This document shows, one piece after another, positions 4,872-46,988 of a stretch of DNA of 64,000 bases (position 1 is its first letter; every line of letters begins with the position of its first letter). Both the position numbers and the translations under genes were made by a program. A model generated the notes under the pieces. It made no database searches and was not told where the DNA came from. It saw nothing but the letters and a program-made list of their open reading frames with translations. Source of the stretch: Undibacterium hunanense (GTDB lineage Bacteria; Pseudomonadota; Gammaproteobacteria; Burkholderiales; Burkholderiaceae_D); contig NZ_JACOGF010000011.1 of NCBI RefSeq assembly GCF_014284335.1, forward strand, positions 124,001-188,000, read 5' to 3'.

Positions 4872-4953
4872 GCCTGCTCCATTGGAAAGCCCAGGTTGAG
4901 AATGACATAGCCTGTGTGCGAGGCCAAGTACTGTTTATAAAGTATTGAATATT

Positions 4954-5233
4954 AGGACGTGCTGACCTATCTTTTAGGCAAGCAAATGGGTTTGAAACCT
5001 TGTCTGACTAAGCGTGCGGAGCGCTGCTTGGCGATACAAGTGACCGACACACAACAACGCCAGGCGAGGTTTCAGACCCATTCCCTCCGGGTTCCCCTCA
5101 TAGCGCACGCTGGACTGCAGGGGTTGCAAGATTCTGCGTCTTGTCAGGGGCACCAGCCCTGACTGCGCCGCACGCCTTGCCAGCCTGCGCTATGAGGGGA
5201 ATGCTTTGTCTAAAAGACAGGTCAGTACGCCCT
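4954..5233. repeat. Large structured repeat, copy 1 (outer stem enclosing two inner stems)
   Basis: The ends are inverted repeats of about 31 bases: 4954-4984 and 5202-5233 both read as CTGACCT.TCTTTTAG.CAA in opposite orientations. Inside lie two adjacent stems. Stem one pairs 4985-5000 (AATGGGTTTGAAACCT) with 5067-5082, one mismatch. Stem two pairs 5094-5113 (CCCCTCATAGCGCACGCTGG) with 5180-5199, one mismatch, and has its own apical hairpin (TCAGGG/CCCTGA). A short TCCCTCCGGG linker separates the stems. The same architecture with different but again complementary arms occurs at 46720-46988. It is non-coding. Confidence 0.8.
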
Positions 5234-5248
5234 AGTCCCAAGGACAAT

Positions 5249-5302: not shown

Positions 5303-7423
5303 TCAGAAATCGAATTGTGCTGACACTTTGTAAGTACGTGGTGCACCAGGGAACAAATAACCGCCCAGTGATTGGGTCACATCGCGCCAGTAAAACTTGT
5401 CCAGCGCATTGTCGATATTAAAGCGCAGGGTCGTTGCCGTATTACCGATTTGTGTCGCATAGCGTGCGCCCAGGTTGACGACATGGTAGCCAGGTACTGT
5501 CACACTATTGTCCGGGCTGAATGCCTTGCTGCTGGCATATTGCCAGCTTGCATTGACATTTAAACCCTTGACTTCAGTGACGGCATAATCGGCATAAACA
5601 GTAGATTTGAAGCGCGGCACATTCATGACACGTTTGTTGTCCAGGCTGCTGATGCCGGTGTTTTGCTGTTTTGCATCCAGCGCAGTCAGACTGGCTCCCA
5701 GATTCAGTTGCGACGTCAGCTTGCCTTGTGCAGACAGTTCCAGACCTGTATGCAGGGCTTCGCCATTGCTGACATAGGTATTGCTGCTATTGGTATATTC
5801 CAGCGGCTTCTTGATGCGGAAGATGGCTGCAGACAGGCTTAGATCACGCTGTACATCTGCCTTCACCCCAAATTCAACTTGTGTGGATTTGCCCGGGTTC
5901 AGCATTTTGTTTTCATTGCTGGTACCGAAAGGGGCGATACCGCCATGTTCCAGCCCTTGAGCAAAACTGCCGTAGACAGAAACCTGTTGCACGGGTTTGA
6001 ATACCAGCGCTGCCGTCGACAGAAACTTGTTCTGGTCATAGCCAGGATTATCAAACTGAGTGCGTGAAATATTCAGATGACGCAGACCCAGATGCAGTTT
6101 CAGATTGTCTTGCAGGCTGATGATGTCCTGTACAAAGGCAGACCATTCCTTGTCAGTACGACGCAGTAAAGCCGGGCCGGTTTTGTTGGTGGATGGCGCT
6201 ACGGCCACAGGGCGGAACAAATTGCTGCTGCCCGCATAGTCATACACATAATCACCAAAATAATCTTTACGCTGTGAATTGCTGAGGCCGACAGCCAGCT
6301 CATGCTGCATGCCGGCAAGGCTGAATTTACCATTCAATTGTGCTCGCGTACCCCACAGTGATTTGGATTCATTCACACTCTGGTAGTCATACACATCATA
6401 GTCACCATTGGCGCAATAGCCGGGGTAGAGATTTGCGGCGCCACAACCATACGGGAAGGCTGTGTAATCATCCCGTTTGAATTCATGTTTGTTGGCAGAC
6501 AGGCTGGCTTGCCAGTCCTTGTTGATCTGGTATTCAAAACGCAAGCCCAGATTGCTGTTGCGGGTATCTACAGGCCTGGCCCAGGGCTGTGCATTCAGCA
6601 TCAGGTCTGCCGGTACGCCACGGGGTAAATCCGTGCCATTGAATAATTGAAATCCGGGAACGGACAACTGCGATTTATGCTGATAGTCTGCATCGATCTG
6701 CAACAGTGCCTGTGATGTGATATGCCAATCAAACGCAGCAGACACAAACTGGCGTTCGCCATCTGCACCTTTGACATACGAACGCAAACGTTCGCCTGCC
6801 GCGTTGATACGGAAACCAAACTGGCGGTCGCTGGAATTATCGCTGATATCTGCCGCGCCATACAGCGTGCCGCGCTCACTGATTTCCAGGCTGACCGAGC
6901 GCAATGGCGCACTGGTCGGGCGTTTGGTTACATAGTTGATGATGCCGCCCGGCGTGGCAAAGCCCGCCTGGAAACCGGCAATGCCCTTGAGTATTTCTAT
7001 GCGTTCCTTGTTTTCCAGCGGGATGGCGGCATCACCTGGAATGGCAAAACCGTCCTTGCGATAGCTGGATGAATTATCCAGGGCAAAACCGCGTATCGAG
7101 AATTGTTCGGCATAGCCGATGGCGTTGTAGGCATCATTCACGCTGGCATCGAATTTCATTGCATCCGTGGTCTGGCGCACGCGCAAATCCTGCATCTGGC
7201 TGCTGGTCATCACATTCACCGAGAATGGGGTATCGACCAGGGCCGTTTCGATAAAGCCGGACGCCTTGCTGCGTTCTGCTTTGCCTTCGGAAGTCTTGTT
7301 GCCCGTGACTACGACTTCAGGCAGGGACTTTTCTGTCGTCTGAGCCTGTGCATGGGGCAATAATACAAATGCCTGGGCAATGGAAAATGCCAGCAGGGCA
7401 GGGCGAAATGGGGTATCAGACAT
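5303..7423 (-). CDS. TonB-dependent outer-membrane receptor, probably for thiamin or a precursor
   Basis: A 706-residue outer-membrane receptor. The signal peptide ends near HAQAQ (residue 28) and is followed by a TonB box-like LPEVVVTG. The plug domain (about residues 55-170) has FSIRGFALD and a conserved GGIINYVTKRPT end. A 22-strand barrel follows and ends in aromatic QFDF. The plug resembles siderophore receptors of the FpvA/FhuE type, so homology alone suggests iron uptake. However, a thiamin pyrophosphate riboswitch lies immediately upstream (7500-7588) with no other gene between. Thiamin-regulated receptors of this kind have been proposed as importers of thiamin or its pyrimidine moiety, and I favour that here. 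It is a single-gene unit closed by the terminator at 5249-5287. Confidence 0.88.
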   Translation of the reverse strand: MSDTPFRPALLAFSIAQAFVLLPHAQAQTTEKSLPEVVVTGNKTSEGKAERSKASGFIETALVDTPFSVNVMTSSQMQDLRVRQTTDAMKFDASVNDAYNAIGYAEQFSIRGFALDNSSSYRKDGFAIPGDAAIPLENKERIEILKGIAGFQAGFATPGGIINYVTKRPTSAPLRSVSLEISERGTLYGAADISDNSSDRQFGFRINAAGERLRSYVKGADGERQFVSAAFDWHITSQALLQIDADYQHKSQLSVPGFQLFNGTDLPRGVPADLMLNAQPWARPVDTRNSNLGLRFEYQINKDWQASLSANKHEFKRDDYTAFPYGCGAANLYPGYCANGDYDVYDYQSVNESKSLWGTRAQLNGKFSLAGMQHELAVGLSNSQRKDYFGDYVYDYAGSSNLFRPVAVAPSTNKTGPALLRRTDKEWSAFVQDIISLQDNLKLHLGLRHLNISRTQFDNPGYDQNKFLSTAALVFKPVQQVSVYGSFAQGLEHGGIAPFGTSNENKMLNPGKSTQVEFGVKADVQRDLSLSAAIFRIKKPLEYTNSSNTYVSNGEALHTGLELSAQGKLTSQLNLGASLTALDAKQQNTGISSLDNKRVMNVPRFKSTVYADYAVTEVKGLNVNASWQYASSKAFSPDNSVTVPGYHVVNLGARYATQIGNTATTLRFNIDNALDKFYWRDVTQSLGGYLFPGAPRTYKVSAQFDF

Positions 7424-7499
7424 GGTTTGCTCTTTATTTGCGCTTTAATGCGTTGTGGATGACAGCGCGGGAGCAAACAAAGAAACGGACGAACGGGAC

Positions 7500-7588
7500 T
7501 TTGCGCTTCCCTTCGCTGGCATTATCCAGATCAGGTAGAAGGGACTCTCTCACCCGGAAACATTTGCTTCCAGGACCCCTAGCGAAGC
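7500..7588 (-). promoter_or_regulatory. Thiamin pyrophosphate (TPP) riboswitch / THI element
   Basis: On the minus strand the interval begins with TAGGGGTCC, then GGGTGAGAGAGTCCCTT, then ACCTGATCTGGATAATGCC and AGCGAAGGGAAG. These are the conserved blocks of the THI box in their usual order (CTGAGA-type loop, CTGATCTGGATAATGCCAGCG-type core, closing stem). The start codon of the receptor is about 75 bases downstream. No obvious terminator with a U-tract lies between, so control may be by sequestering the ribosome site near 7430-7440. Binding of TPP is expected to reduce receptor synthesis. Confidence 0.93.
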
Positions 7589-7786
7589 CCGTACTTTACC
7601 ATGAAAGCGGCCACAAGATTTGTAACACAATTTGAATGTTGGTACGGCGTATGGCAAAACTTGGATATGATGTAAATGACATCATCACAGAATTGTTGAA
7701 ACAGTTGCATGTACAGTTAGCAAATAATACTTGCTCATGCAGGCCCGCATTCATATTTAACTCATATTTAGCCACGTCAGTCTTAT

Positions 7787-46399: not shown

Positions 46400-46560
46400 G
46401 AACCTGTTTGCGATCTTACTGCGCGAGCGCAATCGGAGTCTGCGCGGGGCTCATGTGCTGCTCAAAATGCTCATGTACTGGAGTACATTCCGCTTTTTGC
46501 GCTGCACTTGGTTACCCTGACCCCGCTGACGCTCGCTCGCTACAGATCGTAAACAGGTTC
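46400..46560. repeat. Palindromic repeat A, copy 2
   Basis: A 161-base element whose ends are inverted copies, GAACCTGTTTGCGATC and GATCGTAAACAGGTTC. It is the reverse complement of copy 1 (27949-28111) with about 90 percent identity; the central hairpin reads TGTACTGGAGTACA here. It lies between the ETF-QO start and repeat B copy 2. Confidence 0.87.
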
Positions 46561-46575
46561 TTATTGGCGCACAAG

Positions 46576-46728
46576 TTACACCGGATTATCGCAGAGCCAA
46601 CTTTGGGATGCATCAAGATCATGTGAAATGGCAGGAAAATTTCTGTAAAAATCTTCAACTAATTCAAATCCATACAACACAAGCATAATCTCTATGTCAT
46701 CATAGCGGCTAGATAGAGTAGAACTCAT
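46576..46728 (-). CDS. Small hypothetical ORF, possibly a gene remnant
   Basis: A 50-codon frame on the minus strand. Its product is acidic and aromatic (RYDDIEIMLVLYGFELVEDF) and reads like the end of a globular protein, unlike the repeats on either side. The start codon lies inside the arm of repeat B and no ribosome site is evident, so this may be the tail of a gene cut by the repeat. Family not recognised. Confidence 0.3.
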   Translation of the reverse strand: MSSTLSSRYDDIEIMLVLYGFELVEDFYRNFPAISHDLDASQSWLCDNPV

Positions 46729-46988
46729 TTCATAAATAGGGATGAGTGCGAGCAAGGCGATTCGGGATGCAGTGCAAGGCGCGTCGCGTAGCCAAGGCTG
46801 GTGCCTTGGCAAGCGGCGCAACGAAGCAATGCGCCCGAATCGCCAGCTCCCGGAGGGTTTGCCTCATAACGCGTGCTGGACTGCGTTGGACTCGTTGTCA
46901 ATAGACCCGCTATTGATTGCCTCGTCCGCCTTGCCAGCCCACGTTATGAGGCAAACGCATCTCACCCCTATTTATGAAATGAGTTCTA
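46720..46988. repeat. Large structured repeat, copy 2
   Basis: Outer arms 46720-46746 and 46961-46988 are inverted copies of AACTCATTTCATAAATAGGG. Inside, stem one pairs GGCGATTCGGG (46756-46766) with CCCGAATCGCC (46834-46844). A TCCCGGAGGG linker follows. Stem two pairs 46860-46879 (TGCCTCATAACGCGTGCTGG) with 46934-46953, with apical hairpin TCAATA/TATTGA. Stem two and linker clearly match copy 1 (4954-5233), and where the sequences differ both strands of the stem usually differ together. Non-coding; lies upstream of the short-chain dehydrogenase. Confidence 0.82.

Follow-up and report, generated by a model that had tools for sequence, protein, structure and literature searches.

The two structured elements present in the window, the 64,000-nucleotide stretch of the Undibacterium hunanense genome that was analysed, are non-autonomous mobile elements (MITEs). 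They are short and non-coding, have terminal inverted repeats that match the ends of insertion sequences (ISs), show TA duplication and empty sites, and occur as dispersed copies. We consider it probable that these MITEs are moved by IS5-family transposases and that they carry as interior a hairpin not derived from those insertion sequences, of which the stems would be recopied by template switching and the core kept by selection. The initial annotation of this DNA had described a stand-alone structured element; given that the outer arms match IS5-family mobile-element ends and that TA flanks and empty sites are found, this description is replaced by that of a MITE, and the earlier interpretation was right in part.

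Both copies fold into a single outer helix, which surrounds a pair of stems plus a small CCC-nnn-GGG hairpin, with MFE z-scores of -11.3 (copy 1) and -14.9 (copy 2) and none of 200 shuffles equally good. The structured fold described earlier is therefore present in both copies; of the three linked stems the fold stands, while the bounds are now those of Table 1 and a mini-hairpin separating the stems is added. Chance palindromes were ruled out as an explanation by the fold z-scores and the copy number. The arms of stem 2 are 95% complementary in copy 1 (5092-5113 and 5180-5201) and 91% complementary in copy 2 (46857-46879 and 46934-46956). The outer inverted arms of copy 2 span 46719-46746 and 46961-46988, and in an ungapped comparison of the two terminal arms 23 of 30 positions agree in copy 1 and 25 of 28 in copy 2. 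The paired differences between the copies that the initial annotation listed (CC/GG versus TG/CA, G-C versus A-T, and TCAGGG/CCCTGA versus TCAATA/TATTGA) are indeed found in the sequence. A covariance model, R1, was built on stem 2 of 33 elements (alignment A2); the hairpins for A2 left out L077, L001, L006 and L007, after which seven of the 40 listed were dropped. Stem 1 of copy 2 is the stem-2 hairpin reversed (R1, 35.2 bits, E 1.1e-5; model R2, 32.6 bits, E 9.4e-8), and stem 1 of copy 1 gave no match with R1 (to E 10) or R2 (to E 1). The stem-2 core of copy 1 is interrupted, reading CTGC-AGGGGTTGCAAGATTCTG-CG as compared with CTGC-GTTG-CG in L002 and L003. Elsewhere in the window a TPP riboswitch (7491-7590, 62.4 bits) lies upstream of the frame 5303-7423, which by reading is TonB-dependent-receptor-like.

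Table 1. Positions of the two mobile elements and of their parts in the window.
Feature	Position	Strand	Basis
MITE copy 1 (family B), 278 bp	4955..5232	+	genome copies; absent at orthologous site in L314-L316
Left TA of copy 1	4953..4954	.	sequence, comparison with relatives
Right TA of copy 1	5233..5234	.	sequence, comparison with relatives
Left terminal repeat of copy 1, IS5-type end	4955..4984	+	23/30 match to right arm
Right terminal repeat of copy 1	5203..5232	-	likeness to IS end; arm match
Stem 1 of copy 1, degenerate inverted hairpin	4985..5082	-	fold and likeness to L003; missed by the models
Mini-hairpin CCCTCCGGG separating the stems, copy 1	5083..5091	+	sequence, fold
Stem 2 of copy 1, motif hairpin	5092..5201	+	core strands 5112-5118 and 5173-5181; insertion in core; R1, R2
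MITE copy 2 (family A), 266 bp	46721..46986	+	at least 25 near-full-length genome copies including copy 2; absent in L308-L311
Left TA of copy 2	46719..46720	.	sequence, comparison with relatives
Right TA of copy 2	46987..46988	.	sequence, comparison with relatives
Left terminal repeat of copy 2	46721..46748	+	first bases equal the end of the 857-bp IS5-family element
Right terminal repeat of copy 2	46959..46986	-	inverted arms; likeness to IS end
Stem 1 of copy 2, motif hairpin inverted	46756..46844	-	models R1, R2
Mini-hairpin CCCGGAGGG, copy 2	46849..46857	+	sequence, fold
Stem 2 of copy 2, motif hairpin	46857..46956	+	core strands 46878-46888 and 46927-46935; R1, R2

A BLAST search of the U. 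hunanense genome (6.28 Mb) revealed, with the window copies included, at least four full copies and one partial copy of the copy-1 kind (family B) and at least 25 near-full-length copies of the copy-2 kind (family A), next to at least one interrupted family-A copy and several lone family-A arms. The outer arms, which had been reported to share no sequence between the copies, are unlike between copy 1 and copy 2 but conserved within family A and within family B; they differ between the copies because the ends come from two different IS5-family insertion sequences. Comparison of orthologous loci, proposed earlier as a check, showed that both elements are absent from relatives. At the copy-2 site four relatives (L308-L311) keep the flanks and one TA and have no element, the empty site of L308 being GATAGAGTAGTAAGC and the window counterpart GATAGAG-TA-[element]-TA-GTAAGC; two more distant relatives were too diverged for this comparison. 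At the copy-1 site L314-L316 are without the element, and the TA itself is not retained there (CA in L316). A TA is found at both ends in 19 of the 20 copies retrieved from genus g27.

Searching with the family-A end pattern yielded three end pairs spaced 857 bp in two g27 genomes (L299-L301). The overlapping frames of these ISs match DUF4096 (PF13340) and DDE_Tnp_1 (PF01609), and both frames score barely above the cut-off of the NCBIfam model transpos_IS5_3. The first 20-22 bp are common to the 857-bp IS and the family-A MITE, after which the sequences diverge. The candidate partner of family B is an 851-bp element in genome G187 with a PF01609 match, TA flanks and the ends GGGC(C/G)TGTTGACATAT. 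Its right end equals the ends of L002 and L003 (family B) over 16 of 16 bp; in window copy 1, by contrast, the terminal arms are diverged from this IS end. Among 34 IS loci the hairpin was not found except for one match at E 0.94, and L299-L301, L122, L116 and L112 gave no match to it; judged from these comparisons, the MITE interior is not a deletion product of the partner ISs. The ends, the duplication and the partners strongly support mobilisation in trans, in which IS5-family transposases of the two-frame DUF4096 plus DDE type would recognise the terminal repeats, move the MITEs and duplicate the TA. Neither PF01609 nor PF13358 is matched in the U. hunanense genome (108 contigs), which means that the current mover is either absent or located within a contig gap. 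IS630-type transposases were also considered as movers and rejected, as they occur in two of nine genomes and no paired matching ends were seen by eye.

Several variants and neighbouring repeats were encountered. A lone family-A terminal arm (L307) is located at 2679-2710 of the window, upstream of a frame at 2817 that reads as Ppx/GppA-like; the end pattern matched it at contig positions 126692-126708. Genomes G026 and G059 harbor elements of 165, 185, 123 and 52 bp (L302-L304, L306) with intact ends, in which one hairpin is deleted or truncated or both are gone. By eye, several family-A copies (L034, L039-L046) have longer alternative segments at the hairpin strands that resemble AAGGTGTGnACAnTT, and the insert that interrupts the core in window copy 1 looks like these segments. 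A palindromic repeat at 46400-46560 adjoins copy 2 and has, by eye, ends GAACCTGTTT... with TTA on each side. This repeat is missing from the aligned upstream region of L308 and matched neither hairpin model R1 nor R2. In Lampropedia (L198) the core hairpin lies within the end AGAACCTGTTTACGATC, which is near-identical to the end of the same window repeat.

The interior of the MITEs is one hairpin, usually present in these elements as a double, inverted pair flanking the CCC-nnn-GGG mini-hairpin, and its core strands are GGACTGCGTTG and CGCCTTGCC. Many more copies than the two described at first were found in related genomes with covariance models. The exact core pattern occurs in 20 of 294 genomes of the bacterial family; R1 matches 140 of 288 family genomes (E 0.001; up to 14 candidates scored per genome) and R2 finds the hairpin in 108 of 398 phylum genomes (E 1e-4; up to 11 scored per genome), the E-values of both models being rough. 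In 16 genomes chosen for holding a copy, R2 counted 2 to 101 hairpins per genome. In GTDB contigs the pattern GGACTGCGTTG-N20-50-CGCCTTGCC was found in at least 117 stretches, in records named for at least eight bacterial phyla, many of the records being metagenome bins. The matches listed include Acidobacteria, Pseudomonadota (Gammaproteobacteria, Burkholderiales, Hyphomicrobiales), Clostridia, Actinobacteria (Nocardioides, Propionibacteriaceae), Planctomycetota, Verrucomicrobia with Akkermansia, Candidatus Latescibacterota and Sulfurovum. The GTDB representatives mostly have complementary arms of lineage-specific sequence; the arms of the Latescibacterota hairpin L161 are not complementary, and its genome has two R2 matches. 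Among the matches listed, 93 of 118 hairpins have an outer repeat pair, 35 being of the double build (255-290 bp elements, core 110-145 bases from the left repeat) and 32 of the single build (145-175 bp elements, core centred). The terminal repeats vary by lineage, and many start like TAGnGCnTGT, by reading resembling IS5-family ends. Within a survey that went through the core, the hairpin module is thus present in several phyla inside different ends. That it is a single module, defined by its core, which spread over these phyla by acquiring the IS5-type ends of each lineage and is read as a folded single strand by a common factor, is a tentative proposal that we hold to be less likely than not; if true, the module would represent a widespread class of elements that parasitise transposition or replication.

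Other settings of the hairpin were also surveyed. In two g27 genomes (L074, L075; also L259) a solo hairpin is flanked by two transporter-like frames, and no terminal repeats were found in the stretch examined at L074 and L075. The double element L093 measures 339 bp and has an additional structured stretch within stem 1. Clustering of translated frames near L147-L263 gave repeat translations and ordinary genes and no gene linked to the hairpin, a weak test as a mover need not be nearby. Carriage by phages was rejected, since 15 stretches of viral contigs have arm scores of 3-6, like cross pairs, and look like chance matches. Neither window copy matched plasmid records. Three elements taken from other genomes were compared as well: two had no plasmid match, and the third hit four Pseudoalteromonas records that carry no annotated features. 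In the open-licence literature no paper was recognised as describing the hairpin, also with a query for the core sequence, and a description may be published.

The stems covary strongly. In the 33 family hairpins of A2, 16 of 27 pairs show changes on both sides. The covariation score of 45 diverged hairpins (alignment A4) was 0.520, as compared with 0.144 for shuffled and 0.107-0.193 for slid alignments, and that of 74 hairpins from other places (A5) was 0.791 versus 0.159 for shuffled ones; both scores lean towards structure, because A4 was pre-filtered for complementary arms (those with an arm score under 8 left out; of the 49 representatives, L166, L180, L208 and L225 were then dropped in making the alignment) and A5 was selected and aligned by R2, with possible overlap of genomes with A4. 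Two of the five measures were not above shuffles, in A4 and A5 alike; the pairs changed on both sides numbered 20 versus 19.8 in shuffles (A4) and 22 versus 20.8 (A5), and the further pair types 70 versus 76.7 (A4) and 76 versus 93.5 (A5). A test that used neither a model nor an arm filter gave a score of 11.55 for own arms versus 4.69 for arms of different elements. The own-arm score exceeded the 99th percentile of cross pairs in 37 of 51 diverged representatives and failed to do so in 14, and a crude test of the apical stem was passed by eight of the 51. Near-identical rows were removed before several counts, including this arm test. Among 25 family-A copies of the U. hunanense genome, the distinct changes counted, with L046 dropped, were 11 double ones of Watson-Crick type and 63 single-sided ones; L253, L077 and viral matches were dropped from other row sets, including the one filtered for A4. 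The complementarity noticed earlier between two copies is thus maintained in many more, with covariation above controls.

These elements are an example from nature of strong covariation that does not necessarily imply a functional RNA, because template switching from arm to arm yields covariation too. The excerpted text of PMC8794818 describes hairpins maintained by template switching, with multi-base compensatory changes and arms remade as mutual copies, and gives as a prediction compensated changes without wobble intermediates. On the motif strand G.T pairs amount to 0.5-1.5% of stem pairs, as compared with 6% in ten tRNAs at the same loci, a small yardstick. Copying that rebuilds palindromes, one of the options raised in the initial annotation, is seen in single cases. 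In genome G381, L323 and L335 share the 5' arm and the outer stem, and the inner 3' strand of L335 is the exact complement of its own 5' strand, with the inner loop gone and the core left. In L005 a 21-bp perfect palindrome replaces stem 2 and the core, whereas L004 retains the imperfect stem. Since L335 kept its core though the inner loop was lost, it is no proof of erasure of the core by copying. We propose that one arm would be recopied from the other by template switching at DNA replication, which would give fast-changing, complementary stems.

Because arm copying tends towards perfect palindromes, the core strands and the internal loops (ACT/CTTG and a TTG bulge) are probably retained by selection. 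In A5 the mean share of the top base is 0.98 in core columns and 0.44-0.45 in stem columns, a conservation that is partly by construction as the core served as search pattern, directly or via models built on it; this ascertainment weakens the argument for selection on the core. The elements could also be a mutational by-product, with palindromes arising by template switching and a functionless core that is conserved through shared ancestry and recent spread alone. The cases given above do show arm copying, mobility by itself would be enough for spread, and the core-based search under-samples coreless variants; we nevertheless regard this as improbable, considering the contrast between core and stems in A5, the occurrence in records of several phyla and the presence of the same interior within different IS-type ends.

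The conserved mismatches and internal loops of the hairpin are asymmetric between the strands, and such strand-specific mismatches mean that the folded single strand has polarity. Wobble-type mismatches favour the motif strand in A4 (52 versus 10; sequences 30 versus 0) and, less strongly and with columns 9-11 excluded, in A5 (37 versus 13; sequences 22 versus 5), and few wobbles of either type occur in the distal stem (7 versus 3). The family-A copies have 20 G.T versus 17 A.C distinct single-sided changes before sorting for orientation; sorted by stem orientation these become 18 versus 10, with the terminal arms set apart at 5 and 4 (our own count). The asymmetry is mostly located in the inner helix and around the conserved CC/AA mismatch, which is strand-specific too. 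The polarity is easier to reconcile with an RNA or a single-stranded DNA site than with a symmetric cruciform. A cruciform of symmetric DNA that a structure-specific protein binds would agree with the long inverted arms, the strict Watson-Crick pairing and the near-symmetry of the double element, but its internal loops and mismatches should then not differ between strands as they do, which makes it very improbable.

A structured RNA would be transcribed from promoters neighbouring the element, with selection acting on the RNA strand GGCAAGGCG...CAACGCAGUCC, and the inverted pair would ensure one RNA copy in either orientation of insertion. The strand preference of the wobble-type mismatches in A4, in A5 and in the sorted family-A copies is of the kind expected for such an RNA, as are the strand-specific conserved mismatches, and the excerpted text of a review describes MITE transcripts that form stem-loops (PMC10969869). 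Against this explanation, G-U pairs are scarce on the motif strand and in the distal stem, much of the bias comes from the CC/AA mismatch, and orientation with respect to flanking genes is mixed: in raw counts the upstream gene lies on the same or the opposite strand for 30 and 21 single and for 14 and 7 double hairpins. Moreover, Rfam scans at the gathering threshold (including 19 loci) and at permissive settings matched no described RNA family, the permissive scan of the elements giving only hits to R1162 antisense (16.4 bits, E 2.3) and to MIR839 (13.7 bits, E 3), both well short of the cut-off. Twenty single and four double hairpins lie within a frame of more than 150 codons, as called by a crude gene caller with real and spurious frames unsorted. 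We consider a structured RNA unlikely and do not claim the strand bias as RNA selection, which could explain it too. The cause that we prefer for retention of the core is a putative factor that would recognise the hairpin in the form of one folded strand of DNA.

MITEs are often regarded as decayed insertion sequences whose interiors carry no meaning. In the present elements it is the interior that is common, while the IS ends differ, and about a quarter of the sampled phylum genomes (108 of 398) carry it, which makes it testable what aids the spread of non-autonomous elements. Similar to IS5-mobilised MITEs, the elements are short and non-coding, with IS5-family terminal inverted repeats, TA flanks, many copies and empty sites; unlike these, the interior is a hairpin conserved across lineages inside different IS ends and is not an IS deletion product. 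REP sequences and BIMEs are dispersed imperfect hairpins, also occurring as inverted pairs with a linker, that are moved by RAYT (Y1) transposases. The elements described here share the dispersal, the imperfect hairpins, their inverted pairing and the linker, but have IS5-type ends and TA flanks, and no linked gene was found among the neighbours of L147-L263. The attC sites of integrons are hairpins with a free stem sequence, kept unpaired bases and the boxes GTTRRRY/RYYYAAC. The free stem and the kept unpaired bases are shared with the present hairpin, whereas its aligned core strands, inspected by eye, lack complementary boxes of this type. The hairpins maintained by template switching, as far as the excerpted text of PMC8794818 presents them, are alike in their compensatory multi-base changes and in having arms copied from each other, and differ in that the hairpin described here belongs to a mobile DNA family that retains its internal loops.
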